DNA of 64,000 nucleotides, taken from assembly GCF_016900375.1 (NCBI RefSeq), contig NZ_JACJKB010000001.1, forward strand, positions 186,001 through 250,000, in the 5' to 3' direction. The notes beneath the pieces were generated by a model. It did not search any database. It saw nothing but the letters and a program-made list of their open reading frames with translations, and was not told the origin of the DNA. Made by a program: the position numbers and the translations under genes. This DNA is from Collinsella tanakaei. Its GTDB lineage: Bacteria > Actinomycetota > Coriobacteriia > Coriobacteriales > Coriobacteriaceae. Positions 1-19,340 of the stretch are shown one piece after another. Numbering within the stretch: the first letter of the stretch is position 1; each line of letters starts with the position of its first letter.

Positions 1-448
1 CATCGAGGTCGATCCCGTTCCCGTCGAGATCACCTACGGCCTCGAGCGTCTCGCCATGTACGTTCAGAACGTGACGTCCGTCTACGACCTTGTGTGGAGC
101 TACCTGCCCGACGGCACGCCCATGACCTACGGCGACGTGTTCCTCGAGAACGAGCGCGAGTTCTCGGCCTACAACTTCGAGGTCGCCGACGTCGAGATGA
201 TGCGCCAGAAGTTCGACGACTACGAGCGCGAGTGCCATTCCTGCCTCGATGCAAAGCTGCCGCTTCCCGCGTACGACTGCGTCATGAAGTGCAGCCACGC
301 CTTCAACATCCTCGATGCCCGCGGAGCCCTGTCCGCCGTCGAGCGCGCCAACTACATCCTGCGCGTCCGCACCGTCGCCAAGGCCTGCTGCGAGGCCTAT
401 ATGGCCGAGGTCGTCGGCGCTGACGATTCGGAAGGGGAGGTCGCCTAA
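1..448 (+). CDS. glyQ: Glycyl-tRNA synthetase alpha subunit (3' part)
   Basis: The reading frame is open from base 2 and ends with TAA at 446-448; the start lies left of the window. The visible 148 residues match the C-terminal half of the alpha chain of two-subunit GlyRS, including the stretches [11 protein letters not shown] and [18 protein letters not shown]. The alpha subunit holds the class II catalytic core that makes glycyl-adenylate and works with the GlyS beta subunit, whose gene begins two bases after this stop. An alpha2beta2 GlyRS is unusual for mainstream Actinobacteria and fits Coriobacteriia. Only the N-terminal part is missing because of the window edge. Confidence 0.95.
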
Positions 449-449
449 C

Positions 450-2543
450 ATGGCCGAGACCCGAGACTTTCTGTTCGAGATCGGCACCGAGGAGATGCCC
501 TCCGCGCCGCTTATGAACGCCGTGAAGCAGCTGCCCCGCCTGGTGTCCGACGGCCTCGATGCCGCCGGCCTGGCTCATGGCAACATCCGCATCGTCTCGA
601 CCCCGCGCCGCCTGGCCGTGCTCTCGAGCGTTGCCACCGAAACCGATGCCATCCACGACATCAAGCGCGGTCCCGCTGCCAACATCGCCTTCGATGCCGA
701 CGGCAATCCCACGAAGGCCGCCGAGGGCTTCGCGCGCAAGTGCGGCATCGCCGCCTCCGAGCTCATCCGCCGCGAGGACACCGACGGGCGCGAGTACATC
801 TTCGCCGAGAAGGATATCCCCGCAGCGCCGGCCATGCCGCTGCTCTCCAAGCTCTTCCACGACGTGATCGCCAACCTCGAGTGGCCCAACTACCGCAGCC
901 AGCGCTGGGGCACCACGCACGAGACCTTCGTGCGCCCGATCCGCTGGATCTGCGCCCTGCTGGGCAGCGAGGTCATCCCCGTGAGCTACGCCGACGTGAC
1001 GAGCGGCAACACCACGCGCGGCCACCGCGTGCTCGGCCCCGGTGAGCATGTCGTTTCCGAGCCCGCCGTCTACGAGCAGGTACTCGAGGAGGCCGGCGTC
1101 CTTTCCGAGGAGCGCCGCCGCCAGGTGATCGCCGACGGCATCGCGAAGATCGAGGCCGAGCGCTCCGGCGCGCATGTCGACACGCCCAAGAAGGTCCTCG
1201 ACGAGGTCGTGAACCTCTGCGAGTGGCCGACTGTGCTCGTCGGCACGTTCGACGAGGAGTTCCTCCACGTCCCGCACGAGATCATCTGCGAGTCGATGCT
1301 CTCCAACCAGCGCTATTTCCCGATCTACGACGCCTCCGGCGCCCTTACCCGTGAGTTCGTCGTGGTCGGTAACGGCAAGCCCGAGAACGCCGCCGCTATC
1401 ATCGACGGCAACGAGCGCGTCGTGCGCGCCCGCCTCTACGACGCCAAGTTCTTCTACGACGAGGACCTCAAGATCCCGCTCGAGGACTTCCGCGAGCGCC
1501 TCGCCAAGGTCGGCTTCCAGGAGAAGCTCGGCACCGTGCTGCAGAAGTCCGAGCGCATGGAGGACCTGGCGCTCGCCATCGCCTCCGCTGCCCGCATCGG
1601 GGCCCATGCCGCCTCCGACGCGCAGCGCGCTGCCCATCTTGCCAAGGCCGACCTCGTGAGCTCTGCGGTCGTCGAGTTCACGAGCCAGCAGGGCGTCATG
1701 GGCGGCTACTATGCGAAGGCGGCAGGGGAGAGCGACGAGGTCGCTGCCGCCATCCGCGATCATTACCGCCCGCGCTTCGCCGGCGACGAGCTGCCCTCCG
1801 GCATCGCCGGCTGCATCGTGGCCGTTGCCGACAAGCTCGATACCATCGCCGGCATGTTCGCCATCGATGAGCCGCCCACCGGCTCGAAGGATCCCTTCGC
1901 CCTGCGCCGCAGCGCCATCGGAATCCTGAACATCCTGCGCGAGCGTCTGCACTGCGGCTACGAGGAGCTTGTCGGACCTGCGCTCGACGCGTACGCCGAC
2001 CAGGGTCTCTCCTTCGATAAGGACGCTGTCGCCCAGGCCGTGTGCGCCTTCATCAAGGGCCGTATGGAGCAGATGGCGCGCGACGAGAAGATCGCGCCCG
2101 ATACGGTCGCTGCCGTTTCTGCCGGCGCCGTGTCCGCGCCGGTCGATTACTTCGCGCTCGCTCACGCCCTCGAGGACGCCCGTGAGAGCGATCCCGAGAC
2201 CTTCGAGAACCTCGCGACCGCCTATGCGCGCGCGAGCCATCTGGCCGACGCCTCGCTCGGCAGCGAGGTCGATGAGAGCCTTATGGGCGACGCCGAGCGC
2301 GCGCTCATGCACGCGACCGACGCCGCGGGCGAGTTTGTCCAGATCGCGCTCGAGAAGAAGGATTTCCAGCAGCTGATCTCCGGTCTTGCCGCCCTGCGCG
2401 AGCCGATCGACCGCTTCTTCGACGACGTCATGGTTATGGACGAGGATGTCGCGCTTCGCGAGAACCGCCTGCGCCTCCTCAATCGCTTCGAGGCGGTCTT
2501 TGCCGGCATCGCCGACATGGGTGCGCTCGCCAAGAAGAAGTAG
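450..2543 (+). CDS. glyS: Glycyl-tRNA synthetase beta subunit
   Basis: The product is 697 residues, close to the usual length of about 690. It opens with the typical FLFEIGTEEMPSAPL and carries the conserved MRWG-like region (NYRSQRWGTTHETFVRPIRWI) near residues 148-168. The beta subunit binds tRNA-Gly and is needed for aminoacylation by GlyQ. The ATG at 450 follows the glyQ stop directly and has a purine-rich stretch (GGAAGGGGAGG) upstream, so the two genes are surely co-transcribed. A strong hairpin with a T run follows the stop. Confidence 0.97.
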   Translation: MAETRDFLFEIGTEEMPSAPLMNAVKQLPRLVSDGLDAAGLAHGNIRIVSTPRRLAVLSSVATETDAIHDIKRGPAANIAFDADGNPTKAAEGFARKCGIAASELIRREDTDGREYIFAEKDIPAAPAMPLLSKLFHDVIANLEWPNYRSQRWGTTHETFVRPIRWICALLGSEVIPVSYADVTSGNTTRGHRVLGPGEHVVSEPAVYEQVLEEAGVLSEERRRQVIADGIAKIEAERSGAHVDTPKKVLDEVVNLCEWPTVLVGTFDEEFLHVPHEIICESMLSNQRYFPIYDASGALTREFVVVGNGKPENAAAIIDGNERVVRARLYDAKFFYDEDLKIPLEDFRERLAKVGFQEKLGTVLQKSERMEDLALAIASAARIGAHAASDAQRAAHLAKADLVSSAVVEFTSQQGVMGGYYAKAAGESDEVAAAIRDHYRPRFAGDELPSGIAGCIVAVADKLDTIAGMFAIDEPPTGSKDPFALRRSAIGILNILRERLHCGYEELVGPALDAYADQGLSFDKDAVAQAVCAFIKGRMEQMARDEKIAPDTVAAVSAGAVSAPVDYFALAHALEDARESDPETFENLATAYARASHLADASLGSEVDESLMGDAERALMHATDAAGEFVQIALEKKDFQQLISGLAALREPIDRFFDDVMVMDEDVALRENRLRLLNRFEAVFAGIADMGALAKKK

Positions 2544-2634: not shown

Positions 2635-2973
2635 TCAGCCGATCGCTCGCAGCGCCGCCTGCTGAGCCTCGTCCAGTGCGGGCATGAGCGAACGGGCGCC
2701 ATCGAGGTCGCCTGCCCGAGTATCTGCAAGGATCTTCATAGCGAGGTCGCGCACCGGCACGAGCGACAGGTTGGCGCTCACGCCCTTGAGCGCATGCGCG
2801 GAGGCTTCCGCCGCCTCAAGGTCACCGCGCTCAAGGGCGTCTTTCAAGCCGGCATACGAGCCATCGGCAGCATACAGGCCGAGCAGGCGGTCAAACAGCA
2901 TCTCGTTGCCGAGCACGCGGGAGAGCGCGTCGTCGACGTCCATACCGGCTGCAATCAAAGCATCGCGATTCAT
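2635..2973 (-). CDS. HPt-domain phosphotransfer protein
   Basis: This 112-residue protein is a stand-alone histidine phosphotransfer domain. The phosphoacceptor is predicted to be His60 in the motif SAHALKGVSANL (HxxKG), inside a helical bundle. Such proteins carry a phosphoryl group from the receiver domain of a hybrid kinase to another response regulator. The ATG at 2973 has a good AAGGAG at suitable spacing; a longer frame runs back into the palindrome at 3012-3125 and is not believed. It lies downstream of the REC-HD-GYP gene on the same strand. The hybrid kinase at 15937-18492 is a plausible donor (inference). Confidence 0.88.
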   Translation of the reverse strand: MNRDALIAAGMDVDDALSRVLGNEMLFDRLLGLYAADGSYAGLKDALERGDLEAAEASAHALKGVSANLSLVPVRDLAMKILADTRAGDLDGARSLMPALDEAQQAALRAIG

Positions 2974-3011
2974 CTCAAGCTCCTTATCTCGAGACGGGCA
3001 GAAAAAGTAAC

Positions 3012-3125
3012 GGCTGGCCTCTCTGGGGACGTAGCCGGGAGGCGCCATGCCGGACACTGCGACGAAGTCGACATCCGAGACTCCCGGCATGGCGCCTCCC
3101 GGCTACGTCCCCAGAGAGGCCAGCC
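3012..3125. repeat. Family A palindromic element A1
   Basis: Two perfect 42-bp arms (3012-3053 and 3084-3125) are separated by 30 bases. The arms contain the core TGGGGACGTAGCCGG shared with the elements near 19123, 25497, 34267 and 37778. A1 sits between the HD-GYP and HPt genes, so the operon transcript would fold into a very long hairpin there. It is too long and lacks a T run, so it is not a typical terminator. Confidence 0.92.
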
Positions 3126-3184: not shown

Positions 3185-4297
3185 TCAGGCGTAGAGGCGG
3201 TGGAGTTCGGGTTCGACGTGGTCGAAGGCGGCGAGGAGGGCGGGATTGAAGGTGCCGCAGGCGCCTTCGTGAATCATGGCGAGGGCACGCTCGCGGCTGA
3301 AGGACTCCTTGTAGCAGCGCGGGCTCAACAGCGCGTCGTACACGTCGGCGAGCGATACCACCTGGGCCCAGATGCTGATCTCGTCTCCGGCAAGGCCGTC
3401 GGGGTAGCCTCGGCCATCCCAGCGCTCGTGGTGGTGCCGGGCGATATCACGGGCATACGTGAAGGCTGGGATGTCCGCCACGGCGGGAATCATACCGAGC
3501 AGGCGCTCCCCCTGGAGCGTATGCGTCTTCATGATCCCATATTCCTCGTCGGTAAGCTTGCCCGGCTTGCTCAGAATCGCATCGGGGATGGCGATCTTGC
3601 CGACGTCGTGCATGATAGCCGCCAGTGAGATATCGTCGATCTCGTCGGACGTCAGATCGCGGCCGAGCTCAGTGCGGGTCAACATGGTATGCGTGATGTC
3701 GTGGATGCGACGCACGTGCTCGCCCGACTCGCCGTCGCGAAATTCGATGGCCGCGGCGAGCGCCTCGATCATCGACCGGTTGAGCTCGATGATCTTCGCC
3801 GCACGGCGCAGGAGTTCCTCCTGCTGGTCGCGCACGACGCCCGAGAGCCTGCGGCGGGCGGCGTAAAGCTCGACGACGCTCAGCACGCGTCGGCGGACGA
3901 CGAAGGGCACGACGGGCTTCTCGATGACATCCATCACCCCGAGCTCATAGGCGCGGCGCATGACCTCGCCATCGGCCTCGGCGCTGATCAAAAACACCGG
4001 CACCTGTGCGAGAAGCCCCGCTGCAGCAACCTGTTCGAGCAGGCCCAGGCCGTCCACATGGGGCATACGATAATCGAGCAGGATCGCGCTGATGCTGCCA
4101 GGGGAGGCGAAGATGCTCTTCAGGCCCTCACGGCCGTCCTCGGCCTCCTCGATACGGTAGACATCGGAGAAGATATTGCCCAGAACCAGCCGGTTCACCG
4201 GGTCGTCGTCGACGATGAGCATCGTATCGGGCTCTGCAAGCGCGAAGTCCGCAAGCGCAGAAGCAACCATATCGCCGGCAGTCCGTCTGTCTTCCAT
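3185..4297 (-). CDS. Response regulator with HD-GYP domain (c-di-GMP phosphodiesterase)
   Basis: The product is 370 residues. An N-terminal receiver domain (about 25-145) has the acidic pocket near residues 30-32 and the phosphoacceptor Asp75 in ILLDYRMPHVDG. A short helical linker leads to an HD-GYP domain (about 175-370) with His230-Asp231 in MHDVGKIAIP and the HHERWDGRGYPDG motif at 289-301. HD-GYP enzymes hydrolyse cyclic di-GMP, usually under receiver control. The ATG at 4297 has GAGGAG upstream; an in-frame start at 4339 has no better signal. It sits 61 bases downstream of a diguanylate cyclase gene and upstream of the HPt gene, all in one direction, so it is probably part of one c-di-GMP signalling operon. 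Confidence 0.93.
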   Translation of the reverse strand: MEDRRTAGDMVASALADFALAEPDTMLIVDDDPVNRLVLGNIFSDVYRIEEAEDGREGLKSIFASPGSISAILLDYRMPHVDGLGLLEQVAAAGLLAQVPVFLISAEADGEVMRRAYELGVMDVIEKPVVPFVVRRRVLSVVELYAARRRLSGVVRDQQEELLRRAAKIIELNRSMIEALAAAIEFRDGESGEHVRRIHDITHTMLTRTELGRDLTSDEIDDISLAAIMHDVGKIAIPDAILSKPGKLTDEEYGIMKTHTLQGERLLGMIPAVADIPAFTYARDIARHHHERWDGRGYPDGLAGDEISIWAQVVSLADVYDALLSPRCYKESFSRERALAMIHEGACGTFNPALLAAFDHVEPELHRLYA

Positions 4298-4358
4298 ACC
4301 ACTCCTCGCTCCCGCAGGCCCATACCTCCGTCTTAGCATATCAATGCGGGCGGGGTAC

Positions 4359-5489
4359 CTAACCGAGATGCTCTCCGTGCTCGACCTTTAGCGACGGGTC
4401 GAATGTCTTGATGCAGATAGAGTTCTTCCCGTTGCGCTTCGACGTATACAGGGCGTTGTCCGCCTGCATCATAAGGCCCTCGAGCGACACGTCCTGGCTG
4501 CGTGCGCAGACGACGCCTACGCTGCAGGTCAGGCGCTCTCCGATCGCCGCCTTAGACCTGCGGGCGAATTCCTCCCGAATACGGGTGAAGCGCTTCTGGA
4601 GCACGGCGTCGTCCACCAGGCTGTCCAGCAGCACGAGGAACTCGTCGCCGCCGTAGCGGGCGATGATATCGGAAGGGCGGAACTGCACCGACAGCAGACG
4701 GCCGAGCTCGGCGAGCGCACGATCGCCGGCCTGATGCCCGCGGGAATCGTTGACGTCCTTGAAGTCGTCGAGGTCGATGAAGGCGAGCGAGCACGAGACC
4801 TCGGGGTTCATGGAGCCGATGTAGGAGCGCGCACGCTCCATGAAGGCACGGCGGTTATAGAGGTTCGACAGCGTATCGCGCGTGCTCAGGCGCTCGTAGC
4901 GCGCCTTCACGTCGTAGGAGCGCAGACGAAAGCTCATGACCATGCGCGACAGGCAAAGCGAGAACAGGATGCCCGCCACCATGCCGAAGAGATCGAACTG
5001 CGCGATCTCGGGATCCTTGACCGTCACCACGAGCACGCAGTAGACGGCCTCGGCGAGCGCGAACAGCCCAAGCCCATAGCGGTCGGGAAGGATGAACAGA
5101 CCGGTCAGGGCGACGCACACGAGCTGCACGAAGATGCTTGGGTTCGAGGGCCCGCCGACCGTATCGAGCAGGATCGCGAAGGTGTACAGGAAAACCTCGA
5201 ACAGGATGCACAGGGCGGTGACGCCCCAGGGAGCCGCATGGCGCAGCCCGAGCCAGCAGATGGCGCACACGCTGATGCTCGCAAGCAAAAACGCAATATG
5301 ATAGGGGGACGGCTGCCAGTCCGAGATGAGAAGCGTAGCGGATACCATCAGGACCGCCAGAAGCACGATGACCATGATGGTGACCAACCTGAGGAACCGC
5401 GCGTTGTCGGCAGCGATCTCGCGCCGGCCTTCGACAAAATACCGCCGCTTGCTTGCCATATAGCCTTTCAGAGCGCTCAGCACCCACAT
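4359..5489 (-). CDS. Membrane-bound diguanylate cyclase (GGDEF)
   Basis: The product is 376 residues. About six hydrophobic segments lie between residues 34 and 187, followed by a GGDEF domain (about 200-360) with an exact GGDEF motif at 280-284. An RxxD inhibitory-site motif (RPSD, 271-274) lies five residues upstream, so product feedback inhibition is expected. The enzyme makes c-di-GMP from two GTP. The membrane part resembles no sensor domain I can name. The ATG at 5489 is preceded by GGAGGG; a second ATG at 5459 is possible. It is the first gene of the minus-strand set with the HD-GYP and HPt genes. Confidence 0.92.
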   Translation of the reverse strand: MWVLSALKGYMASKRRYFVEGRREIAADNARFLRLVTIMVIVLLAVLMVSATLLISDWQPSPYHIAFLLASISVCAICWLGLRHAAPWGVTALCILFEVFLYTFAILLDTVGGPSNPSIFVQLVCVALTGLFILPDRYGLGLFALAEAVYCVLVVTVKDPEIAQFDLFGMVAGILFSLCLSRMVMSFRLRSYDVKARYERLSTRDTLSNLYNRRAFMERARSYIGSMNPEVSCSLAFIDLDDFKDVNDSRGHQAGDRALAELGRLLSVQFRPSDIIARYGGDEFLVLLDSLVDDAVLQKRFTRIREEFARRSKAAIGERLTCSVGVVCARSQDVSLEGLMMQADNALYTSKRNGKNSICIKTFDPSLKVEHGEHLG

Positions 5490-5814
5490 CAAGGGACATC
5501 CCTCCACAACGGCCGCGCAGGCCGCGATGTGAACCCGACCAGGGGATCTACGTTGATAATGAGATAGTAGTCTACCCATACGGAGGATGCGCCTGCAGGG
5601 CGTTTAACGAAGCAACAAACAGGCTAAACGGTTTGTTGAAGCTCGGAATCAAAGTGGTTCAGCCGCTAAGACGCACGCGTTGTAAAACTATAGTGAGGTG
5701 CGAGATGCCCTGATATAGTGGGGTGTCATTTACGCATGGTAACGCTTGCGGTCGGAGGTGGATGCCCATGCACAACGCAGGTACGGGCCGCCACATGGCC
5801 GAAGGCGGTCGACT
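5490..5814. other. Divergent intergenic region upstream of GGDEF and VTC genes
   Basis: No gene is seen in these 325 bases. An inverted repeat, CAACAAAC / GTTTGTTG (5613-5620 with 5631-5638), could be an operator or a weak hairpin. Two TATAGT hexamers are visible in the stretch around 5688-5720 on the plus strand, but neither has a convincing -35 partner. Promoters for both divergent transcription units should lie here. Confidence 0.4.
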
Positions 5815-6513
5815 ATGCAGCAGGTAGCACGGCAGGAGAAGAAATACCTGACCGACGTCGCATCCGCGACGCGTCTTCGCGGGCGTCTCCGTCATGTGCT
5901 CCATGAGGACGAGCACGGCGGGGCAGACGGCTATCGCGTGCGCTCCCTCTACTTCGACACGGTTAACGACCGCGATTACGAGGAGAAGTTCGCGGGAACC
6001 GACCCTCGCCGCAAGGTCCGGTTGCGCATCTACGACCCGCACGCCGAAAAGGCTCTGCTGGAGATGAAGCAGACATCAGGGGAGCATCAGCTCAAGCGCT
6101 CGCTTGAGCTCAGCCGCAACGAGGCGAAGCGTCTGATTACGGGCGACCTGTCGTGGATGCCCAGGCGTCCCGAACCCTTCGCCGCCGAGATGTACGGCGT
6201 CATCCAGATGCACGGCTACCGGCCGAAGGCCATCGTCGAGTACCGCAGGCGCGCGTTCGTGGCGCGAGAGCTCAAGACGCGCATCACCTTTGATAGCGAC
6301 ATCCGAGCCACCTAGGCGAACATCGACATCTTCGATGAGAACCTCTGCCTCTATCCCGTGCTCGACCCGTTCAACGAAGTGCTTGAGGTCAAGTACAACG
6401 GGTTTCTGCTCGGCTACATTCGCCAGGAGCTCAACGCCATCGAGAAGCGCCCCATTTCGGTCAGCAAGTACGCCCTCGCCCGTGAGCTCTCGCACACCTC
6501 CGCGGGAAGATAG
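5815..6513 (+). pseudogene. VTC-domain polyphosphate-polymerase-like protein, interrupted by TAG
   Basis: The frame encodes about 232 residues of VTC domain, with EKKYLTD, VRSLYFDT, RKVRLRIYD, ALLEMKQ, KAIVEYRRRAF and LEVKYNG, the basic and acidic strands that line the VTC tunnel. A TAG at 6313-6315 interrupts it after residue 166. The same frame then continues with fully domain-like sequence (ANIDIFDENLCLYPVLDPF) to a normal TAG at 6511-6513. Relatives usually have Glu at the interrupted position, so GAG to TAG is the likely change (inference). VTC-DUF4956-CotH sets are common beside exopolysaccharide synthases in Gram-positive bacteria. The start at 5815 is chosen because homology begins there; its ribosome site is weak. 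Confidence 0.85.
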
Positions 6514-6541
6514 CGCAGCTGCGCTGCAAGGAAGGATAGTC

Positions 6542-7225
6542 ATGAGAGAAGAGCTGTATCAGCTGCTGCAGGGATCGTCTTCGGTCATCGGCTTCGAGGA
6601 CGCGCTCATCAGGATCTGCTTCGCGATCGTGCTCGGTCTCGCGATCTTCGTCTCGTACTGGATCTCGCACGCCGGAACGATCTATTCGCAGAAGTTCAAC
6701 GTCAACCTCGTCACGCTCACCGTCCTCACCACGACGGTGATGATGGTCATCGGCTCCTCGATCGCACTGTCACTCGGTATGGTGGGCGCCCTGTCTATCG
6801 TCCGCTTCCGTACGGCCATCAAGGATCCTCGCGATACGACCTATATCTTCTGAGCGATCATCTGCGGCATCTGCTGCGGCGTCTCGCAGTTCATCGCCGC
6901 CGCCCTCGGCACCGCCGCCGTGTTCGTGGCCATGCTCATCCTCGGCCGCATCCGCAACGACGAGCGCACCCTGGTGATCGTCCGTGCCGCCCGCGCGCAC
7001 GAGCTCGCCATCGAGGGCAAGATCTACACCTATCTCAACGGCAAGGCTGTCCTGCGCGTCAAGAACACGACTGACAGTTCCGTCGAGTTCATCTACGAGG
7101 TGACCCGTCGCATGCTCGCCGACGCCCAGAAGGGCAAGACCGAGCTGCTCACCGACGCCATCTACGAGATCGGCGACGTCGATTATGTCAACATCGTCAC
7201 GCAAAGCGACGAGATCGGAAGCTGA
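6542..7225 (+). pseudogene. DUF4956 membrane protein, interrupted by TGA
   Basis: The intact length would be 227 residues. The N-terminal half has membrane helices and the conserved GMVGALSIVRFRTAIKDPRDTTYIF. The next codon is TGA (6851-6853), where a tryptophan (TGG) is expected. The frame then carries on as AIICGICCGVSQFIAAALGTA and a C-terminal soluble domain to the stop at 7223-7225. AAGGA precedes the ATG. The single base change TGG to TGA is the simplest explanation. The function of DUF4956 is unknown; it is a regular partner of VTC and CotH genes, as here. Confidence 0.85.
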
Positions 7226-7237
7226 CGGTGAGTGCTC

Positions 7238-8773
7238 ATGCGTAAACGCCTCATAGCGCTTGCCATACCGGTGCTGCTGATCGGCGCCGCACTTGCCGCT
7301 ACCTTGCTGCAGCAGCAGGCGACGGCACCCGACGCTGCCACGGAGCAGCGAAGCGCCCAGCATGAATACGCCGCGCATGTCGAGGACCTCCCGGAGCGCG
7401 AGCGCTCCGCCGCCCAATCCGTCTCCATCGCGGCCGATACCTTCGCCACGCATCTGCCGCTCGTCTCCATCGAGACCGGTGGCCAGTAGATTCCCGGCGA
7501 TGTGGCGGTCGACGATGACGGTCACGCCGTCATGCGTGCGGATGGTAACCATGAGCTCACCACGACTCCGGAAGGGAAGGAGGATGCGACTGTCACGATC
7601 TCCATCTACGACAACGACGGCCATGCGAACCGCCTTTCCGATGAGCCCGCGGTGCAGACCCAGACCCTCATCCACTACCGCGGCAACAGCTCGCGCCGGT
7701 TCCCCAAGCGCAACTATTCCCTGCATTTCGTTGATGAGAACGGTGAGAACGCCTCGTATGAGGCCATGGGCATGCCGGCCGACAACGGCTGGATCCTGAA
7801 AGGCCCGTATCTCGACAAGTCGCTTCTACGCAACTACCTGTCCTACACCGTGTTCAGCAGCTTCACCAACTACGCACCGCGCGTGCGCTTCTGCGAGCTG
7901 TTCGTCGACGGAACGTATCGCGGCGTGTTCCTGTTTATGGAGGCCGTCGATGTCGGCGAGAACCGCATCCCGCTGACCGAGGGCCAGACGAGCGTGAACG
8001 CCGTGCAGGATGGCGGCGTGGAGACGAGCTACCTGCTGCGCCTCGACCGCTACGACATGGATGCCCAGACGATCGATTCGCTCGGGTCGCAGGTGGGCCT
8101 CATCGAGTCGTCCATGGCCATCGAGTACCCGAACCAGCTCGACCTCACCGAGGCGCAGAAGACTTGGATCACCAGGGATTTCAGCGCCTTCGAGAAGGCT
8201 CTTTACTCGTATGACTACGACACCGCCGAATACGGCTACGCGAACTACATCGATGTGGACAGCTTCATCGGCTACTTCATCGCCAACGAGTTCTCGCTGA
8301 ACAGCGATGCCGGCTTGTACTCGACCTACCTCTACCGCGATGTCCGCGGCAAGATCTGCATCGGGCCCATCTGGGACTTCAACAACGCCTACGACAACTA
8401 CGTCGAGTACGACTACAGCGATGCCTCGGGCTTCACGATGGTCGACCGCCCCTGGTACACGATGCTCTTTCGCGACGAGGACTTCTGCAAGCGGGTCATC
8501 AAGCGCTACCGCCAGCTTCGCCGCGGCGTCCTTTCCGACGAATACCTGCAAGCCTTCATCGACGATGCCCTCGACTACCTCGGCCCGGCCATCGAGCGGA
8601 AGTGGCGCGTCTGGGGGTCGAGCTTCGACATCACCATCGTCGACGAGGGCCATCGCCTGGAGCCGCTCGACCGCAACCCGAAGACCTTCGAGGAGGCCGT
8701 CGCCGACCTCAAGGACTTCATCGGGAGACGCGGGTCGTGGCTCGATCGCAATATCGAGAACCTGAGGCAATAA
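7238..8773 (+). pseudogene. CotH-family protein, interrupted by TAG
   Basis: The frame encodes a signal or anchor segment (LIALAIPVLLIGAALAATLL), a linker, then a CotH-like kinase fold of about 400 residues with NSSRRFPKRNYSLHF, WILKGPYLDKSLLRNYLSY, FMEAVDVGENRIPL and the metal-site-like GPIWDFNNAYDNY. A TAG at 7487-7489 cuts the frame after residue 83, exactly before IPGDVAV where the CotH domain begins. The rest stays open for 428 codons. Relatives usually read GGQEIPG at this point, so GAG to TAG is likely. An alternative GTG start lies at 7232. CotH proteins phosphorylate secreted or surface proteins. Confidence 0.85.
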
Positions 8774-8843: not shown

Positions 8844-9775
8844 ATGAAGCGTTTTATCATCGTGACGGTCATCATGGTCGCCTGCGCCCTCGGCGTCACC
8901 TATCTGGTCCTCTACAAGGGCCTCGACCTCTGGCTGCTCCCGCATTCGTCGAACATCGACGTCCCGTTTCGCGTCGACGGAGCCGATATCGTCGCGCTCG
9001 ACGAAGACGGAGAGGAGCATGTGTTCACCATGCGCGGCGTCGATATCGGGGGCGCCGAGCCCGGTCACTTCGCCACCGAGCAATCCACCGACTGTGAGAC
9101 CTACGAGCGGTGGTCGACCTCATAGCCTCGATGGGCGGCAACACGGTGCGCGTCTACATGCTCATGGCGCCCTCGTTCTATGAGGCGCTCGCCGCCCATA
9201 ACGAGGACGCCGCCGAACCGCTCTACCTGCTTCAGGGCATCTACCTCGACGATTACGCGGCCTACTCGCATATGGACGGCTTCGACGACGGCTATATGGG
9301 CACGCTGCGCGGCCTCATCGGCCAGCGGCGACGCTGGCACACCGGCCTCTACGAGAGCATGCGCAAGCACGAGCACATCTTCGCGAACCACCGGTACAGC
9401 CTCGTCGGATCGATCTCCTACGGCTATTTCCTCATCTACGAGTTGTGGTCGCCGGTCATCGAGCTCGCCGGCATCTTGACGGTGCTTATAGCCTGCGCCT
9501 TCAACTTCATCAACGTGCCGCTCACGATCTTGTTCCATCTCATCTACGCGATCTTCGGCGCGGTCATGTCGCTTACCGCCTTCTTCTCACGCGTGCAGAC
9601 GCGCGACCTCAAGCTCACCGCCTCCGATATCGTCCGCGCGATCATGCTCTCGCTGATCGAGGTGACGGTGCTCAGATTCATCCTCGCCGTGACGCGCATG
9701 CTGGCGCTCGTCGGCTACCGCAAGAGCGGGCGCAGGTGGGAGCGGGTCGAGCGCACGCATCTCGATGCGTCGTGA
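8844..9775 (+). pseudogene. Chimeric remnant of a glycoside hydrolase-like protein and a GT2 glycosyltransferase
   Basis: A strong AAGGAGGTG precedes the ATG at 8844. Residues 1-90 form a membrane anchor and the start of a TIM-barrel hydrolase-like domain (VFTMRGVDIGGAEPGHFATEQ). One base is missing near 9112: reading on in the next frame restores DLIASMGGNTVRVYMLM and YLLQGIYLDDYAAYSHMD. Around 9290-9310 the sequence switches, without a stop, to GLIGQRRRWHTGLY, which holds the QxxRW motif of processive GT2 synthases, followed by four or so membrane helices and a basic tail. This looks like an in-frame deletion that fused two neighbouring genes. Which deletion occurred is inference; the frameshift and domain switch are visible. 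Confidence 0.75.
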
Positions 9776-9903
9776 CGCCTCCTGCCCGTTACACACTGCC
9801 CGTTTTGGACATCTCCGGCCGAAATTGCCACCGCGACAGGTATAGTTAGCAAGAGGGGAAGCCGTAACGAGGCGATTCCCCACACATGAGAAAGGTCGGG
9901 CTC

Positions 9904-12425
9904 ATGGTACATGACACCCATGGAATCACCGAGCACGCTCCCGCGTCGTTCGTCGTCGGCGTGGGCGCCTCCGCCGGCGGCGTCGAGGCGCTTCAGGAGC
10001 TGTTCCAGGCGCTTCCCGCGAACAGCGGCCTCGGCTTCGTCGTGATCCAGCACCTCTCGCCGGATCACCGCAGCCTCATGGCCGACATCCTCGGCAAGCA
10101 GACCGACATGCCGGTCCTGCAGGTCGAGCAGGACACCGAGATCGAGGCCGACACGGTCTACCTCATCCCGCCCAAGAAGAACCTCACCGTCGCCGGCGGA
10201 AGGCTTCGCCTCTCCGATTACGACCACGCGGTGCTGAACCACCCCATCGACATCTTCTTCTCGTCGCTGGCTGAGGAATACCGCGAGCGCTCCGTGGCGG
10301 TCGTGCTCTCGGGTACGGGCACCGACGGCACGAGCGGCATCCGTGCCGTCAAGGAGAGCGGCGGCCTCACCATCGTCCAGAAGCCGGAGAGCGCCAAGTT
10401 CGACGGCATGCCCAAAAGCGCCATCAGCACCGGTCTGGTCGACTGGGTACTCACGCCCCGTAACATCGCCGAGGAGATCGTCAACTTCGCGCGCTACCAC
10501 ATCGACCTCATGCCCGAGGGCGCAAACGGGGCGCTGAGCGACGAGGAGAGCCTGTCGCGCATCTACCTCGTGCTCAAGCAGCAGATGGGTATCGACTTCA
10601 CCTACTACAAGCGCTCCACCATCCTGCGCCGCATCGAGCGCCGCCTCATGGTGACCCACACCTCCTCGCTCGCCGAGTACGCCGACGTGCTCGAGAACGA
10701 TTCCGACGAGGTCTCGACGCTCGCCAAGGAAATCCTCATCGGGGTCACGAGCTTCTTCCGCGATCCCGCCTACTTCGAGGTGCTCAAGTCCAAGGTCATC
10801 ACGAGCATCGTGCGCAACGCCGGCGAGAACGAGCCCATCCGCGTCTGGAGCGCCGGCTGTTCCACGGGTGAGGAAGCGTATTCCGTGGCCATCCTCTTCC
10901 GCGAGGTCATGGAAGAGCTCCAGATGAAGCGCGACGTCAAGATCTTCGCCACCGATATCGACGTCAAGGCGATCGAGAAGGCCGGCAAGGGCACCTTCGG
11001 CGAAAGCATCATCGAGGACGTGACGACCGATCGCCTGGCGCGCTACTTCGTCAAACGCGAGGGCACCTACCACATCATCAAGGACATCCGTCAGATGGTG
11101 ATCTTCGCGCCCCACAACATGCTGTCCGACCCGCCGTTCGGGAAGCTCGACCTCATCTGCTGCCGCAACGTCATGATCTACTTCCAGCCCGTGCTGCAGC
11201 GTAGCCTGTTTGCCATCTTCCACACCGCCCTGAAGAACGGCGGCTACCTCTTCCTCGGCAAGAGCGAGACGGCCAACGAGTACCCCAACGTGTTCCAGCC
11301 CGCCTGCTCTACCGAGAAGATCTACATCCACAACGGCGCGGGCAAGATCGACAGCCCTGCGCCGACGGCCTTCAACATCCCCACGGTGCAAAACGTCCCG
11401 GCGCGCCAGAGCTCGACAGAGGACGTGCGCCGCGTCGACTACGGTCTGGAGACCATCTACACGACCTATCTCGAGCGGTTCCTGCCGGCCTCCGTCATCA
11501 TCAACGAGAGCAACGACGTCATCCACTTCTTCGGAAACTACCTCGACTTCGTGAGTATCGCGCCGGGCAAGGCGTCGTTCAACCTGTTCACCATCATCAA
11601 CAGCGACCTCAGCCTGGCCGCGTCGACGGCGCTCTCCCGCGCCCGCACCGAGCACATCTCGGTAACCTACGAGGGCATCCACGTGGACTGCCCCTCTGGC
11701 CACAAGGTGATCGACCTCATCGCGCAGCCCATCCCGATGCCCGGCAACCTCGATGCCGATCTCGTCGCCATGCTGTTCAAGGACCACCACGCCGATGACG
11801 ATGAGCCCGACGGCGTCGTGGAGAAGTACGACATCGAGGCCACGGCGGCACGCCGCATCGCCGACCTCGAAAGCGAGCTGCGCGATTCGCAAAGCGACCT
11901 GCAGTCGACCATCGGTGAGCTCGAGACCGTCAACGAGGAGCTTCAGGCCGCAAACGAAGAGCTGCTCACGGCAAATGAGGAGCTCCAGAGCTCCAACGAG
12001 GAGCTGCAGTCGGTCAACGAGGAGCTCTACACCGTGAACTCCGAGTACCAGCAGAAGGTCGACGAGCTCACCATGACGACCAACGACCTCTCGAACTTCC
12101 TGTCGTCGACGATGATCGGCATCCTGTTCATCGACGAGAACTTCAACATCCGCAAGTTCACCGAGTACGTGGGCCGCGAGTCTAGCTCATGGACCACGAC
12201 GTCGGCCGTCCGATCCAGATCTTCGCGCATAGCTTCCCCGATGAGGACATCGTCGGCGATGCCGAGAGCGTGCTCAGGAACCTGACGCCCATCGACCGCG
12301 AGATCACCGCGGGCAACGGCCGCCACTACACCCTGCGCATCGCCCCGTACCGCACGACGGACAACACGATCAAGGGACTTGTCATCACCATCATCGACAG
12401 CCTGGGAACCGGTGCACGCGGATAG
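9904..12425 (+). pseudogene. CheB-CheR fusion with PAS-like C-terminus, frameshifted near the end
   Basis: The main frame encodes a CheB methylesterase domain (GASAGG serine, VIQHLSPDH histidine, GTGTDGTSG aspartate), a CheR methyltransferase domain (GVTSFFRD, SAGCSTGEEAYS, FATDID, DLICCRNVMIYF), a PAS-like region, a coiled coil of NEELQxxNEEL repeats and the start of another PAS domain. At about 12181 one base is missing: after YVGRE the frame goes off, while the next frame continues with LMDHDVGRPIQIFAHSF to a stop at 12425. The first 764 codons, with both enzyme domains, remain intact. The ATG at 9904 has AAAGGTCGGG upstream; an ATG at 9886 lacks a site. Such fusions often act outside flagellar chemotaxis. 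Confidence 0.85.
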
Positions 12426-12513: not shown

Positions 12514-15500
12514 TCAGTCTCCGAAGTACTTGCGCTCGAAGAGGTCCACCGGCATCGGGCGATCGTAGTAGAAGCCCTGGCAGAAATTGCAGCCCTCCTT
12601 CACAAGGGCGCGCGCCTGGTCGATGGTCTCGATGCCCTCGGCGATGCAGTTCATGCCGCTGCGCTCGCAGATATCGGCGATATTGCGCACGAGCAGACGG
12701 CTGACCTCGTTGTCCGACATATGCCCGGTAAGCGAGCGGTCGAGCTTGATCGTGTCGAAGGGCACGTTGGCGAGCACCGACACGTTGGAGTAATGCGATC
12801 CGAAGTCGTCGAGCGCCACACGAAGTCCGAGCGAGCGATACCGCTCGACGAGGTCCTTGAGCGTCGAGTTGCCGAGGTCAATCGCGGACTCGGTGATCTC
12901 CATCTCCACGCTGCTCGCGGGAACATCGGGATACCGGCTCATGATTGCCAGGATAGATGCGAGAGCGGTCGATTCGAGCAGCGTGCTGCGCGAGAAGTTG
13001 CTCGATATCGGAACGACGCGACGCCCCCGTTGGGACCAGGAGCTCATCACCGAAAGCATGGCGTCGAACACGTAATAGTCGAGCTCGCTGATACCGCCGT
13101 CCTGCTCGAGCTTCTGGATGGCGTTGGCCGGCGAGGTGATCGTGCCATCCGGGCTCACGCAGCGCGCCAACGCCTCGGCACCGACAAGGTCGCCGGTGCG
13201 CATGTCGAGCTTCGGCTGCAGGTAAATCGTAAAACGATCGGCGATCGCCTGACGCATGCTGGTCGGCTCGATGTCGTCATCACTCAATGTACGGTCGCGG
13301 CGCCTCGGCTCCATAACATGACGCCGACGCTCGCGAGAGGCCCCATCGCGCTCGGCAATCGCTCGCGCCTCGCTAAGCGTGCCGAGCACACTGGAAACGC
13401 TATCCGTCCACGAGCTTCCGAGCTGCAATTCAGAAGGATACGCGGAAAGCAGTGCCGTACGCGCCCGTGCGCAGTCTTTGATGAAGGCCTGGTAAGGCTG
13501 ATTAGGTGAGATGACGACGAACTCCTCATCGCTCACATGGAATATATACCGAGCCTCAAACGACTGGCCCAGAACCTCGCGGACGCTCATGAACATCTCG
13601 TACGCGCCCCGAAGGCCTTCACGCTCCACAAGGTCGAAGACGCTCGTCGCCTCGACGACAAGGATGCCAAGCGAACTCCAGAAGCCCCGGTTGGACCGCG
13701 CGAGCAGATAGTCAAGATCGCGCTCATCGTTGTAGAAGGGGCTGATCTTGTCTTTGCCAGCACGATAGCATTCCGAACGGTTGAGACGTGCCCACTCGTG
13801 GAGAATACGATCGCCGAGAATCGATGCCAGGTTGAGGGAATCAAGGTGCTCACGTGGTCCGTCGACGCACAGCATCATCGTGCATGCCTTGCTATGCGAG
13901 ATCGGAATGAGCGCGAAACGCCAAGGGCGCCCCTGCTCCCCGTCGGGGATAAAGGTCGCCGTGCGGTCCCTCGACACGAACACGGGCCGATCGGATTGAG
14001 CGTTCACCGTGATGAAGGGGAACCGCGATGCAGGCGTGTTGGCAAACAGGCCCTGGATGCTCGTCACATCGGGTTCCATCCACTCGAAGAGCACCGAGAT
14101 AATGTCCTCATCGCTGGGCACCATCAAGATGTAATCGCGGCGAGCACGGTAGTACCGGCCTATCGCACGCAATGCCACATCGATCGCCTGAGCAGGTTCG
14201 GCCGCGTTCATCATGGCCCTGAGCGTCTCGCTGAGTGCGATGAGCTCTTCTTTGCTGAGGCCATCGATTTCGGGCACGTCGGCCACCTGCGCTCGCAAGG
14301 CCTGTCGTACCTCGGTGACGTCACGCAGCGCCACGGGATCTTCCACCATATCGACGGATGTGTCCGCAGTCTCCGATTCCGAGCGCGCCGTAACATGGGA
14401 GAGTACGCCCTGCTCAGCGTTGTTCAGGTCGAAGACACGGTTGTACCCATAGACGGTCGACGCAACGGCATGGACCGAGCCGAGCAGCGCCGCATGCTGC
14501 ACATCGGCGTCAAGCAGGCTCGCGCGCGCAGCGGAAAACACATGGGCCATGCGGCTCTTGATCGAGATGGGCGAGGGAACGCTCGGCATGAAGGCCGCCA
14601 CGGTCGTCTCGTCGACGTCGTAAACCACGCAATCGGTGTTCATGAACACGCCGATCGCCGTCTTGAGATCATGCCGCATCGAGACGGGCAGGCGCTCGAT
14701 TCCGACGAACTTGACGGCCACGAGCGCGCAAATGTCATCGGAAGGATGGGTTTCGAGCATAGACCTGATGAGCAGGTGCGCGTAATCGAGCGTGTAGATC
14801 TGCGTCTGGCCATCGCGCGCCGGGGACATCTCGGCATCGGCCTCCCACGAGACTCGCTCGTCACAGACGTTCACGAACACCTGGGCGGTCAGGTCGCCGG
14901 TATCGGTAATCCCACGGACGTTCACCGCGATGCGCGCGGGACGCACCGTCGTCTTCGAGTCGACGATCCTGAAGCGCGCGACCGTCCAGCGACGCCCGAT
15001 GCGGTAGCGCTTCGTAAGGCGATCGATGGAAAACAGCTCACGGAAGAGCGTGTCCTCATTTGGCGAGAAAAGCGTCTGCGCGCCCATCTCCAATGCCTCT
15101 TGGTAGGGGATCTCGTGAATGAGCCTGACCGTGCGCTCGTCATGGCGCAGATACAGCTGCATCATGCCCTCGGTGATGTTCGCGTGGCCGTAGCGCATCA
15201 GGTGAGGGTAGAGGACAAAGGGGAATTCAGGGGTAAAGGTGCCCGAATCGCCTGATGAGGAGCGCGGAGAGGTTCGCATGCCGACGGCGTACAGGGCGTT
15301 TCCCGAACCGTCGTTGACGATGCGATACACCAAGGTGCACCAGGCGAAGTCACCGTGCGTGCGACGCCTCAGGCGCACCGAGACGCGGTCGCTTTCACGC
15401 CCATCGCCCATTGTCGCGAAAAACCCTGCAAAGGTGCGAATTGAATCGGGATGGACGTGCCCGCTCTCGATCAGAGAGGCGGGAGCGTCCTCATAGGTCT

Positions 15501-15636
15501 GCTCGTACGGGATCCCGTCGAGACCCACACCGCGCACATCGAGGGCGTTGTCGAGCAGACGATAGACCCAGAATTCGCAATCGTTGCGCTGCAACGACAT
15601 ATCGAGCCAGATGTCGAGCAGCTCATTGTCCTGCAT
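12514..15636 (-). CDS. Large EAL-domain protein with degenerate GGDEF (c-di-GMP phosphodiesterase)
   Basis: The product is 1,040 residues. The N-terminal 500 residues contain PAS-like sensor stretches but no membrane helix. A degenerate cyclase domain carries SDEEF in place of GGDEF (HVSDEEFVVI). The C-terminal 260 residues form an EAL domain with Glu821 in GAEALARC, then NFSR, EITES, DDFGSHYS, IKLDRSLTG, AEGIET and QGFYYDRPMP. All expected metal and catalytic positions look present, so it should hydrolyse c-di-GMP to pGpG. The ATG at 15636 follows a G-rich stretch; a GTG at 15771 would add 45 residues but has no ribosome site. It faces the CheB-CheR gene and lies 300 bases downstream of the hybrid kinase. 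Confidence 0.9.
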   Translation of the reverse strand: MQDNELLDIWLDMSLQRNDCEFWVYRLLDNALDVRGVGLDGIPYEQTYEDAPASLIESGHVHPDSIRTFAGFFATMGDGRESDRVSVRLRRRTHGDFAWCTLVYRIVNDGSGNALYAVGMRTSPRSSSGDSGTFTPEFPFVLYPHLMRYGHANITEGMMQLYLRHDERTVRLIHEIPYQEALEMGAQTLFSPNEDTLFRELFSIDRLTKRYRIGRRWTVARFRIVDSKTTVRPARIAVNVRGITDTGDLTAQVFVNVCDERVSWEADAEMSPARDGQTQIYTLDYAHLLIRSMLETHPSDDICALVAVKFVGIERLPVSMRHDLKTAIGVFMNTDCVVYDVDETTVAAFMPSVPSPISIKSRMAHVFSAARASLLDADVQHAALLGSVHAVASTVYGYNRVFDLNNAEQGVLSHVTARSESETADTSVDMVEDPVALRDVTEVRQALRAQVADVPEIDGLSKEELIALSETLRAMMNAAEPAQAIDVALRAIGRYYRARRDYILMVPSDEDIISVLFEWMEPDVTSIQGLFANTPASRFPFITVNAQSDRPVFVSRDRTATFIPDGEQGRPWRFALIPISHSKACTMMLCVDGPREHLDSLNLASILGDRILHEWARLNRSECYRAGKDKISPFYNDERDLDYLLARSNRGFWSSLGILVVEATSVFDLVEREGLRGAYEMFMSVREVLGQSFEARYIFHVSDEEFVVISPNQPYQAFIKDCARARTALLSAYPSELQLGSSWTDSVSSVLGTLSEARAIAERDGASRERRRHVMEPRRRDRTLSDDDIEPTSMRQAIADRFTIYLQPKLDMRTGDLVGAEALARCVSPDGTITSPANAIQKLEQDGGISELDYYVFDAMLSVMSSWSQRGRRVVPISSNFSRSTLLESTALASILAIMSRYPDVPASSVEMEITESAIDLGNSTLKDLVERYRSLGLRVALDDFGSHYSNVSVLANVPFDTIKLDRSLTGHMSDNEVSRLLVRNIADICERSGMNCIAEGIETIDQARALVKEGCNFCQGFYYDRPMPVDLFERKYFGD

Positions 15637-15936
15637 GGAAATTCGGACACCCCCCTGATTTGAAGAGGTGTCATGGGCAGAGCAGCCGATAGCGCCCTGG
15701 AGACGCGATGCGACGGCTTCAGGATATGAAGTTTCCTGCGACCCGTTCGGATGACGCCCTGAAGAAACCACGTTAAAAACTCCCGACCACGTGGAAAACG
15801 GACAAGCAGATAGGCGAGCACCCGGTAGGGAAAATGTTCACATATCAGTATCAATATATCCGTAATCGGTAAAACTATTCCAAGGTGCAAGTAAACGGGG
15901 TATTTTGAAACATAGACGGTAGGGGGTTAGGTTGTA
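15637..15936 (-). promoter_or_regulatory. Intergenic region with candidate promoter for the EAL gene
   Basis: No gene is visible in these 300 bases. The stretch around 15840-15900 is clearly more A/T-rich. On the minus strand TTGGAA (15878-15883) lies 17 bases from GATATA (15855-15860), a reasonable sigma-A promoter reading toward the EAL gene with a leader of about 200 bases. Confidence 0.4.
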
Positions 15937-18492
15937 TCAGCCGTTCCACGCCGTTTCAAGAGCTGCCGCAAGCGCCCCGATATCGATGGGCTTCGTCACG
16001 TACCCCGTCATACCAGCGCTGCGCGCAGCCGCGGCGTCCTCGGCGAAGGCGTTGGCGGTCACCGCGATGATGGGAATCGAATCGGTATCTTCTCGGCCCA
16101 CCGCGCGGATCGCCCGGGCCGCAGCGCAACCGTCCATGACGGGCATCTGCATGTCCATGAGCACGGCGTCGAAGGCACCGGGGTCGCCGTACTCGACAGC
16201 TTCGACCGCCTGCGCGCCATCGGCCACGCTCACAACCTCGACCTCGAGCGCGCCGAGCAGGGTCTCGACGATCAGCAGGTTCGTCGGGTTGTCCTCCGCG
16301 ACGAGCACGCGCTTGCCCTTGAAGGAGGGGAGGGCGCCGTCATCGCGCGATGCGGGGGCGCTCAACGGTTCGGCCGCGTCCCCGGCTGCATGCGGGGCCT
16401 CGACGACCTCGAAGGGGATGGTCAGCGTGAACGTGCTACCCACCCCGAGCTCGCTTTGGACCGTGATCTCGCCGCCCATCTGCTGGACCAGGCTCTTCAC
16501 GATGGGCATGCCGAGGCCCGTACCCACCACGCCGCTCGGCGCGAACATCGTCTCGCGGGCAAAGGGGTCGAAGATCCTCTCCAGGAACTCCCGCGTCATT
16601 CCGATACCCGTGTCGGCGACCTCGATTCGGAACAGGCGCGTCTTTCTGCCTTCGTCCTGCAGCTGGTCGGCATAGCCCACGCGCACATCGACGCGCGCAC
16701 CCTCGAGGCTGTACTTGAGCGCGTTCGACACGAGGTTGTTCAGAATTTGCCCCAGGCGACGTTCATCGCCCTTCACCCAAAGCGACCCGTCGCACGCCGT
16801 GAGCTCGATATGCTTGCCCTCCCGCTCAGCCTGAGCGCGCACCAGGTCGACCGCCGTCGCGGCACAGACCGTGAGGTCCATGGGTTCGAGGTCGAGCACC
16901 GTCTGCTCGGCGTATTCGATCTGACTCATGTCGAGCACGTCGTTCACGAGCGTCTCGAGCTGCACGCCCGCCTCCTCGAGCAAGCCGAGATAGCGATCGG
17001 TCTTCTGGGTATCGCCCTCGCTCTCGCGAGCCATCTTCGTGAGGTTGATGATGGCGTTCAGGGGCGTGCGCATATCGTGGGAGATATTGCTGAAGAAGAT
17101 ATGCTGGCGCCGCGTCGCCTGATGGGCGGTCTCGAGCGCGCTTTCGAGCAGCTCCTGACGCTGCATCTCCTCGCGCATGGCGCCGTCGACATGCCTAAAG
17201 CAGATGATGGCCTCGCCGTTGCCGATCTCGTCGTTCGTGATGCTCGACACGCTCACCCAACGGTACTCGTCGCCAAAGCGGCGCAGGTACCTGCCGCCGT
17301 ACTCGATGACGCCCTCCGCCTCGCGTTTGCGGATGCTCTCGCTCGAGAAATTCTCGGCAAACTGATCGAAGGTCGATTGCTCCACCACGGTGCGCAGCAC
17401 ATCCATGAAGTGGTCGTAGGTTCCCGAGGAGCCCATGACCTGCGCGGTGTCGGAGGAGGACTTGATGGTCGTATAGGTATCGGTCAGGTAGTTGATGCGG
17501 TAGATGGCAAAGTAGGTGTTGCCGAGTATGCGCACGGTGTCGGACGCCTCCTGAATCGCGCGCGCAGAGCGGCGCTCGCGCACGAGCATGATGATGGCGA
17601 TTCCCACGAGCACGAGGCAGAAGGCCGCCAAGGCGACGAACCCCGGTGTCACGCCGCCACTGATGAGCAGCGTTGAGGTGGGGATGGTCACCACCGATAG
17701 CCAGCCTGAGTCGAGGTGCGAGTAGAAGACGCTCAGGTTATTGCCGTCCGGTCCGGTGATGACGGCATCGCTCGCCTCGAGCGTGCCCTCATCCACCCCG
17801 ATGAGGAGCGTCTCCAGGAACTCATCGAACCTCGGGTCATCCGTGTCGGCGGTTCCGCTGCAGGCGAGCAGGTTGTCGGAGCTGTCGAACAGGACGTAGC
17901 CGACGCCGTCCTCCTTCGCGTCGGAGCCAGAGCTGAGGTCCTCCACGGGGATGTCGAAAGCGAGCACGTTTCCCTCGCCATGCAGGGCGATCGATACCGT
18001 AACGATGCGCTCGCCGGTGATCGCATCCGTGTAGGCGTCGGTCACAGCGAGTTTTCCCTCATTCTCGATGGCCCCACGGTACCAACCCGTAGTCCGATAG
18101 TCATATGATTCATCGCCCACCCAAGGATTAGCCGCCACGATGCGGCCGCCTATGACCACATAGGGGTCGGCAGTCGCATTGCCGAGCGCGGTGTTGATGC
18201 CGCTCGCGAACCGAGCAAGAAAGCGCTGCGTGGTCTGCTCGTCAGCTCCGTTGTCTATCTGATCATTGAGACCGGATGCGCCGTATCCCAAAAACATCTC
18301 GTAGATGCCCAGTCGCGCCTGCTCGCGGTCGGCGTAGCTCCGGGCGAGCTTGGTACCAAGCGCCTGGGCGTTCTCGAGCATCTGGGTGCGCACGAGCTGC
18401 GTGCCCCAGCCGATCAGGCCGAGAAACGCGACCGTGGCAAGGGCAAGGGCTATCAGGCGCACGCGGCGCGCATGTGCATCGTATGTTTGCAT
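15937..18492 (-). CDS. Hybrid sensor histidine kinase
   Basis: The product is 851 residues. An N-terminal membrane helix (about 12-33), an extracellular sensor of about 260 residues resembling dCache/CHASE domains, and a second helix (GFVALAAFCLVLVGIAIIML) form the input part. A PAS-like domain follows, then HisKA with His472 in NISHDMRTPLNAI, an ATPase domain with N box NNLVSNALKYS, DTGIGM and GTGLGMPIV, and a receiver domain with Asp780 in AVLMDMQMPVMDG. The kinase should autophosphorylate and pass the phosphoryl group to its own receiver and then to an HPt protein, such as the one at 2635-2973 (inference). GGAGG five bases before the ATG fixes the start. Confidence 0.93.
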   Translation of the reverse strand: MQTYDAHARRVRLIALALATVAFLGLIGWGTQLVRTQMLENAQALGTKLARSYADREQARLGIYEMFLGYGASGLNDQIDNGADEQTTQRFLARFASGINTALGNATADPYVVIGGRIVAANPWVGDESYDYRTTGWYRGAIENEGKLAVTDAYTDAITGERIVTVSIALHGEGNVLAFDIPVEDLSSGSDAKEDGVGYVLFDSSDNLLACSGTADTDDPRFDEFLETLLIGVDEGTLEASDAVITGPDGNNLSVFYSHLDSGWLSVVTIPTSTLLISGGVTPGFVALAAFCLVLVGIAIIMLVRERRSARAIQEASDTVRILGNTYFAIYRINYLTDTYTTIKSSSDTAQVMGSSGTYDHFMDVLRTVVEQSTFDQFAENFSSESIRKREAEGVIEYGGRYLRRFGDEYRWVSVSSITNDEIGNGEAIICFRHVDGAMREEMQRQELLESALETAHQATRRQHIFFSNISHDMRTPLNAIINLTKMARESEGDTQKTDRYLGLLEEAGVQLETLVNDVLDMSQIEYAEQTVLDLEPMDLTVCAATAVDLVRAQAEREGKHIELTACDGSLWVKGDERRLGQILNNLVSNALKYSLEGARVDVRVGYADQLQDEGRKTRLFRIEVADTGIGMTREFLERIFDPFARETMFAPSGVVGTGLGMPIVKSLVQQMGGEITVQSELGVGSTFTLTIPFEVVEAPHAAGDAAEPLSAPASRDDGALPSFKGKRVLVAEDNPTNLLIVETLLGALEVEVVSVADGAQAVEAVEYGDPGAFDAVLMDMQMPVMDGCAAARAIRAVGREDTDSIPIIAVTANAFAEDAAAARSAGMTGYVTKPIDIGALAAALETAWNG

Positions 18493-18636
18493 GGTGCCTC
18501 CGACCAAAGACGACTTATCAGGAGTATCCCACAGGTGAAAATGGGGCGAGCGGTCTTTCGGAAACGTAGGGCCGAATTTGCACGATGCCGCTGTTGGCGC
18601 AGAGTGTGAAGATAGCTCGGCCGTCCTCCACATCTC

Positions 18637-18733: not shown

Positions 18734-19075
18734 ATGGATTACATCCGCGCAATCGAGCGCCAGGACATCCGCGAGGACATCCCGCAGGTCCGCGTTGGCG
18801 ACAACGTCAAGGTCCACTATCGCATCAAGGAAGGCGACCGCGAGCGCATCCAGGTCTTCCAGGGCGACGTCATCCGCATGAGCGGTGGCTCCTCCCGCGA
18901 GACCTTCACCGTCCGCAAGCTTTCCTTCGGCATCGGCGTTGAGCGTACCTTCCCGCTGCACAGCCCGAAGATCGCCAAGCTCGAGGTCGTGCGTCACGGC
19001 CGCGTGCGTCGCGCCAAGCTCTACTACCTGCGCGACAAGGTGGGCAAGGCTGCTCGCATTCCCGAGAAGCGCTAA
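18734..19075 (+). CDS. rplS: 50S ribosomal protein L19
   Basis: The product is 113 residues, the normal size for L19, beginning [18 protein letters not shown] and containing the family stretches [26 protein letters not shown] and [15 protein letters not shown]19 sits at the 30S-50S interface. The ATG at 18734 is chosen by homology, with TAAGGA about 8 bases upstream. It has its own promoter and a strong terminator, so it may be transcribed alone. In many genomes rplS is next to rnhB, as here. Confidence 0.97.
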
Positions 19076-19090
19076 AGATTCTTTGCTTCG

Positions 19091-19119
19091 AAAAAGCCGT
19101 CCTCCGGGGCGGCTTTTTT
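19091..19119 (+). terminator. Terminator after rplS
   Basis: AAAAAGCCG pairs with CGGCTTTTTT across a short G/C-rich loop, giving a classic stem with a T tail 16 bases after the stop codon. Confidence 0.9.
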
Positions 19120-19122
19120 CTT

Positions 19123-19306
19123 GGCCTCTCTGGGGACGTAGCCGGGAGATGCCATATGTGCGCTTTCGGAACATGTGCGCAAGGGCGTCTGTGCGGTATC
19201 GGAACATTCCAGGATTTCGTGCGTTCCCATACTGCACAGCCAAATCGACTGCGACGTTCCCTAAGCGCACAACGCCGGCCCCTGGCCCCAGAGAGGCCAG
19301 GGGCCG
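19123..19306. repeat. Family A element A2, partial
   Basis: Bases 19123-19153 match one arm of family A (core TGGGGACGTAGCCGG followed by GAGATGCCA). A full opposite arm is missing; only CCAGAGAGGCC remains at 19288-19298, within a separate perfect 11-bp hairpin (19278-19306). About 120 bases of ordinary intergenic DNA lie between. This looks like a decayed or half copy. Confidence 0.7.
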
Positions 19307-19340
19307 GTACAATGGGGGTCGTGGCGGAAAGGGGATACCG

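Follow-up and report, generated by a model that had tools for sequence, protein, structure and literature searches.

Three consecutive genes of Collinsella tanakaei, coding for a VTC (polyphosphate-polymerase-like) protein, a DUF4956 protein and a CotH-kinase protein, are each interrupted by one in-frame stop codon. This arrangement raises the question of whether the pathway has recently been lost, whether the stops are decoded as amino acids, whether they are errors of sequencing or assembly, or whether part of the function survives. The locus was analysed within a stretch of 64,000 nucleotides (hereafter the window), to which the coordinates below refer. The evidence makes it highly probable that the genes belong to an operon with a surface polysaccharide or adhesion function that was inactivated recently and is decaying. 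What is being lost is a six-gene operon together with the neighbouring CheB/CheR gene, not the three genes alone.

The three genes lie on the forward strand and were recognised by Pfam and by comparison with relatives. The VTC pseudogene (5815..6513) is stopped by TAG at 6313-6315, codon 167 of 232 counted from the ATG at 5815; the DUF4956 pseudogene (6542..7225) by TGA at 6851-6853, codon 104 of 227 from the ATG at 6542; and the CotH-kinase pseudogene (7238..8773) by TAG at 7487-7489, codon 84 of 511 from the ATG at 7238. All three stops are in frame, the genes are otherwise open and no frameshift was found in any of them, thereby confirming the positions and frames given by the first-pass annotation. 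Its statement that conserved sequence continues beyond each stop was also borne out, as the Pfam matches (E-values of 9.1e-37 for VTC, 6.1e-14 for DUF4956 and 1.1e-60 for CotH) span or follow the stops, and the CotH kinase domain lies 3′ of its stop within the open frame 7502-8773. The residues expected at the stops were counted with loci of the same genome and the duplicate locus of genus mate G017 left out. The TGA had been placed at an expected Trp, and Trp occupies this site in 16 of the 19 relatives (Leu in the other three). Both TAGs had been placed where relatives usually have Glu. This holds for VTC in part of the 18 relatives, as all seven with at least 50% identity have Glu and the 11 more distant ones never do (10 other residues and one gap); for CotH, 'usually' was too strong, the eight relatives having Glu (3), Gln (2), Lys (2) or Asp (1). 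A search of the whole genome for a second VTC, DUF4956 or CotH gene returned a single match for each, the broken copy.

Collinsella sp. An2 (locus L020, NZ_NFJW01000010.1) carries the operon complete and intact, flanked by the same neighbour genes. The order in An2 is glyS, Hpt, response regulator-HD, GGDEF, VTC, DUF4956, CotH, a large protein (754 aa, no Pfam match), a HEAT protein (386 aa), a GT2 glycosyltransferase (470 aa) and CheB/CheR/PAS. The best NCBIfam resemblance of the An2 GT2 is to PgaC/IcaA, under the cut-off of that family. Protein identity between the window and An2 is 60% for CotH, 65% for VTC and 78% for DUF4956, and this one genome, at identities of 60-78%, is the main reference for an undamaged operon.

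Set against An2, the operon is damaged well beyond the three stops. Downstream of CotH on the forward strand, 8844..9310 is what remains of the gene for the large protein (approximately its first 150 codons; no family assigned), and this remnant is frameshifted at about 9105-9122. It ends at a deletion junction (about 9300-9315, forward strand), where approximately 3.9 kb has been lost relative to An2, comprising most of the large-protein gene, the entire HEAT-repeat gene and the first two thirds of the GT2 gene. At the junction, codon ~150-158 of the large protein runs straight into codon ~318-325 of the GT2. The last third of this PgaC-like glycosyltransferase (9302..9775, forward strand; family assigned via the An2 homologue) is thus fused to the preceding remnant and is 71% identical to An2 residues 325-481, numbered in the An2 stop-to-stop frame. 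The CheB/CheR/PAS gene that follows (9886..12425, forward strand; An2 comparison and Pfam) is frameshifted at about 12172-12186, within the PAS part, and its CheB and CheR parts are still open. In total, six separate lesions (three nonsense codons, two frameshifts and one deletion) fall within about 6.6 kb, and the genes carrying frame-disrupting lesions are intact in their orthologues at the same place in An2. The first-pass annotation had described single nonsense changes in all members of one three-gene module; it was right about the loss and too narrow about its extent, having missed the three lesions downstream.

The operon sits alongside c-di-GMP genes in a 16-kb island between glyS and rnhB. 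The left flank is the intact glyS gene for the glycyl-tRNA synthetase beta subunit (315..2543, forward strand; Pfam/NCBIfam), which has a match in 41 of the 43 genus genomes, and the right flank is rnhB for ribonuclease HII (18885..20129, forward strand; Pfam and genus comparison), the true start of which is probably further in. The other island genes lie on the reverse strand and are open. They code for an Hpt-domain protein (2635..3090; Pfam, 48% identical to An2), a c-di-GMP phosphodiesterase-like response regulator with an HD domain (3185..4339; Pfam and NCBIfam, 62% identical to An2), a GGDEF diguanylate cyclase transcribed away from the operon (4359..5579; domain match and An2 comparison), an EAL-domain protein (12514..15771) and a hybrid histidine kinase (15937..18633), the last two recognised by Pfam and genus comparison. 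Among these, the c-di-GMP genes (GGDEF, HD, EAL and histidine kinase) remain open in the C. tanakaei genome. Besides the GGDEF domain of the island, the genome has just one more, which also falls inside the window, at 41549-41959 (gene 40622-41998).

The draft genome consists of 87 contigs, and any single stop could still reflect faulty assembly or polymorphism among strains. An artefact in an intact operon as the source of all the stops and frameshifts is nevertheless very unlikely. From 18.9 kb to its end, the window was compared with genus mate G056, and the 33 homology blocks obtained (35.4 kb) contained no intragenic lesion; stops inside several blocks were left uncounted, as the ORF list placed them ahead of a gene start, at the end of a gene, or in a frame or strand other than that of the gene. 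That only the operon and the adjoining CheB/CheR gene are damaged argues against assembly error of a general kind. Moreover, one of the lesions is a multi-kilobase deletion, the same operon is damaged or absent in genus mates, and the assembly has a completeness of 99.84% and a contamination of 0.02. Recoding or programmed read-through, by which TAG and TGA would be decoded as amino acids and full proteins made, would account for the conserved in-frame sequence past each stop and for the TGA at a conserved Trp; it can hardly be entertained, given two different stops with different expected residues in an operon that is dead downstream anyway. The objection from the differing stops and residues had already been raised in the first-pass annotation and was upheld. 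ARAGORN found no TAG- or TGA-reading anticodon in the loci of 52 Rfam tRNA matches (no tRNA-Cys was recognised, and this list is not wholly complete), two partial tRNA matches at contig ends carry the anticodon ACG, and no tRNA-Sec scored above the cut-off. Release factors RF1 and RF2 are both present, and the 37 homology-supported genes of the window end in TAG (15), TGA (15) and TAA (7). Recoding was rejected on these four counts, namely the tRNAs, tRNA-Sec, the release factors and the use of stop codons.

Shortened but active proteins might still be made from the CheB/CheR part and from the CotH kinase frame that stays open at 7502-8773, as both domains lie wholly inside open frames that could be translated, and CotH has no excess of changes at conserved sites. 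Such partial function is unlikely: the CotH part is without its N-terminal segment, no clear ribosome-binding site was seen for it by eye, and the synthase to be served has largely been deleted. Recent inactivation of the whole operon is therefore the reading carried forward here. The suggestion of recent pathway loss in the first-pass annotation gains support from the 3.9-kb deletion, the two frameshifts, the lack of backup copies and the damage or loss of the island in genus mates.

The age of the loss was considered from base composition and from changes at conserved sites. GC3 is 0.83 in VTC, 0.88 in DUF4956 and 0.86 in CotH, still close to the 0.89 of glyS, which indicates that the loss is young. 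Counts of changes at otherwise invariant sites were preferred to pairwise dN/dS, which was nearly useless with synonymous change near saturation for several pairs. The VTC gene of the window deviates at 11 of 90 such sites (the stop included), compared with 3 of 82 in An2, 4 of 83 in G017 and 7 of 86 in the VTC of an uncultured Coriobacteriia MAG. DUF4956 (3 of 93) and CotH (12 of 132, compared with 11 of 131 in An2) show no clear excess over intact relatives. The excess in VTC, visible in this gene only, may be a sign of relaxed selection, and VTC may have been released from selection first.

The island was found in very different states across the genus. DUF4956 of the window type occurs in 2 of the 43 genus genomes (G000, the C. 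tanakaei genome, and G017), and the CheB/CheR gene occurs in the same two. G017 has the island at the corresponding site, between glyS and rnhB, and the CotH and EAL genes there, the latter open in C. tanakaei, each hold one copy of a 1.24-kb IS1595-like insertion element (L018 about 5450-6690; L080 about 4974-6212). The two copies are 99% identical, and the element has weak IS1595/ISXO2-like transposase matches that fall under the Pfam cut-offs. Apart from G017, ten genus stretches beside glyS were examined, among which those of G054 and G021 are non-syntenic and uninformative. In G022, G023, G056 and G016, glyS lies close to rnhB and the island is absent; in G013, G014 and G045, the two genes are separated by other DNA, about 4.3-4.6 kb in length. 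G008, which is among the nearest by glyS, retains a piece of a broken histidine-kinase gene at the exact island site, a relic of the kinase that is open in C. tanakaei.

When placed on a glyS tree with 22 rows, the three genomes carrying the island are dispersed (3 changes), a pattern that by itself cannot tell three gains from one gain followed by losses. The scattered carriers, the site shared at both flanks and the relic in G008 together favour an ancestral island with repeated loss. We therefore lean, by a modest degree, towards an island that was ancestral at the glyS-rnhB site in this part of the genus and was then lost repeatedly and independently, which would amount to a parallel, selected loss of a surface polymer in gut Collinsella. 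Under repeated loss, the island would have been deleted at least in the lineages of G022 and G023, G056, G016 and G013, although a tree of one gene and a single intact reference do not allow a firm count of the losses. It would persist as a relic in G008, as an IS-hit copy in G017, and with nonsense, frameshift and deletion damage in the C. tanakaei genome. The loss is recent and ongoing, and probably repeated. The literature search on Collinsella pseudogenes and exopolysaccharide returned nothing related, as judged by title and abstract, and that on Collinsella c-di-GMP and gene loss returned none.

The operon is a non-Pel, GT2-type relative of Clostridium perfringens NELoc-2, as judged by gene order and by the published names and sizes. 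NELoc-2 (CP4_0463-CP4_0468) comprises a VTC protein of 230 aa, a membrane protein of 222 aa annotated as tubulin/FtsZ and a CotH protein of 497 aa (PMC2879425; PMC5964661), followed by a hypothetical protein of 685 aa, a HEAT protein of 377 aa and a GT2 or 'chitin synthase' of 466 aa (PMC2879425). The six-gene order and the similar published sizes match the 232, 227 and 511 codons here and the 754, 386 and 470 aa in An2, and the size and place of the 222-aa protein suggest that it is a DUF4956 member. Within the genus, the order VTC-DUF4956-CotH-large protein-HEAT-GT2 is present in An2; the window is without HEAT, and its large-protein and GT2 genes are fragmentary. As far as the published description of NELoc-2 goes, the C. 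tanakaei locus differs in lying in a c-di-GMP island and in being broken.

The same CotH/VTC/DUF4956 trio belongs to the accessory set of Gram-positive pel loci, described as cotH, polyphosphate polymerase, DUF4956 and DUF4832 (PMC7112168). In Streptococcus intermedius (SIR_1591-1594), mutants of the CotH-like and the membrane-protein genes are described as having an altered Pel level and less aggregation (PMC12345266); the membrane protein, SIR_1592, is probably a DUF4956 member. In contrast to these published loci, the operon in the window includes a GT2 that is PgaC-like, and pel genes are absent from it; no PelG was found in the C. tanakaei genome, and the trio does not stand beside pelF/pelG. 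PelG occurs in 11 of the 43 genus genomes, and in Collinsella the Pel-type trio forms a separate locus. A second type of VTC occurs in exactly the same 11 genomes, and the C. tanakaei genome is without both. One accessory trio thus serves two kinds of exopolysaccharide locus, Pel-type and GT2-type, in a single genus, whereas the recent S. intermedius paper states that a search for its equivalent arrangement of three genes found none outside Pel (PMC12345266). In G009 (L007 about 688-1356), the Pel-type VTC gene carries one in-frame TGA at a Trp position, and the other VTC locus of the genus has in this way acquired a nonsense lesion independently.

In its intact form, the operon would direct the synthesis of an exported polymer by a c-di-GMP-linked GT2 synthase. 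By analogy with the equivalent trio of streptococcal Pel, VTC, DUF4956 and CotH would modify or regulate this polymer, which may thus be tuned by the c-di-GMP enzymes of the island together with the trio. Once selection on the operon had gone, point and deletion mutations would have built up, and the nonsense codons would not be read as sense. The mechanism is ordinary gene decay; the present analysis adds how far that decay really reaches and the range of states in which the island is found across the genus. A whole surface-polymer locus is thereby caught in the middle of its loss, and the three stops are explained without recoding. With a single site that is intact, hit by IS copies, decaying, reduced to a relic or empty depending on the genome, the genus offers a natural series in which to ask why such polymers are given up by gut bacteria.

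Two minor observations were made elsewhere in the window. At 25498-25596, Rfam MIR7486 was matched on both strands, and the element resembles a palindrome in the intergenic space of two convergent genes more than a microRNA, which it does not seem to be. At 28368-29900 on the reverse strand, a single open frame of 510 aa, without a Pfam match, falls into two distinct parts when aligned with the seven genus relatives in which it was detected, reflecting either a fusion here or a split elsewhere.
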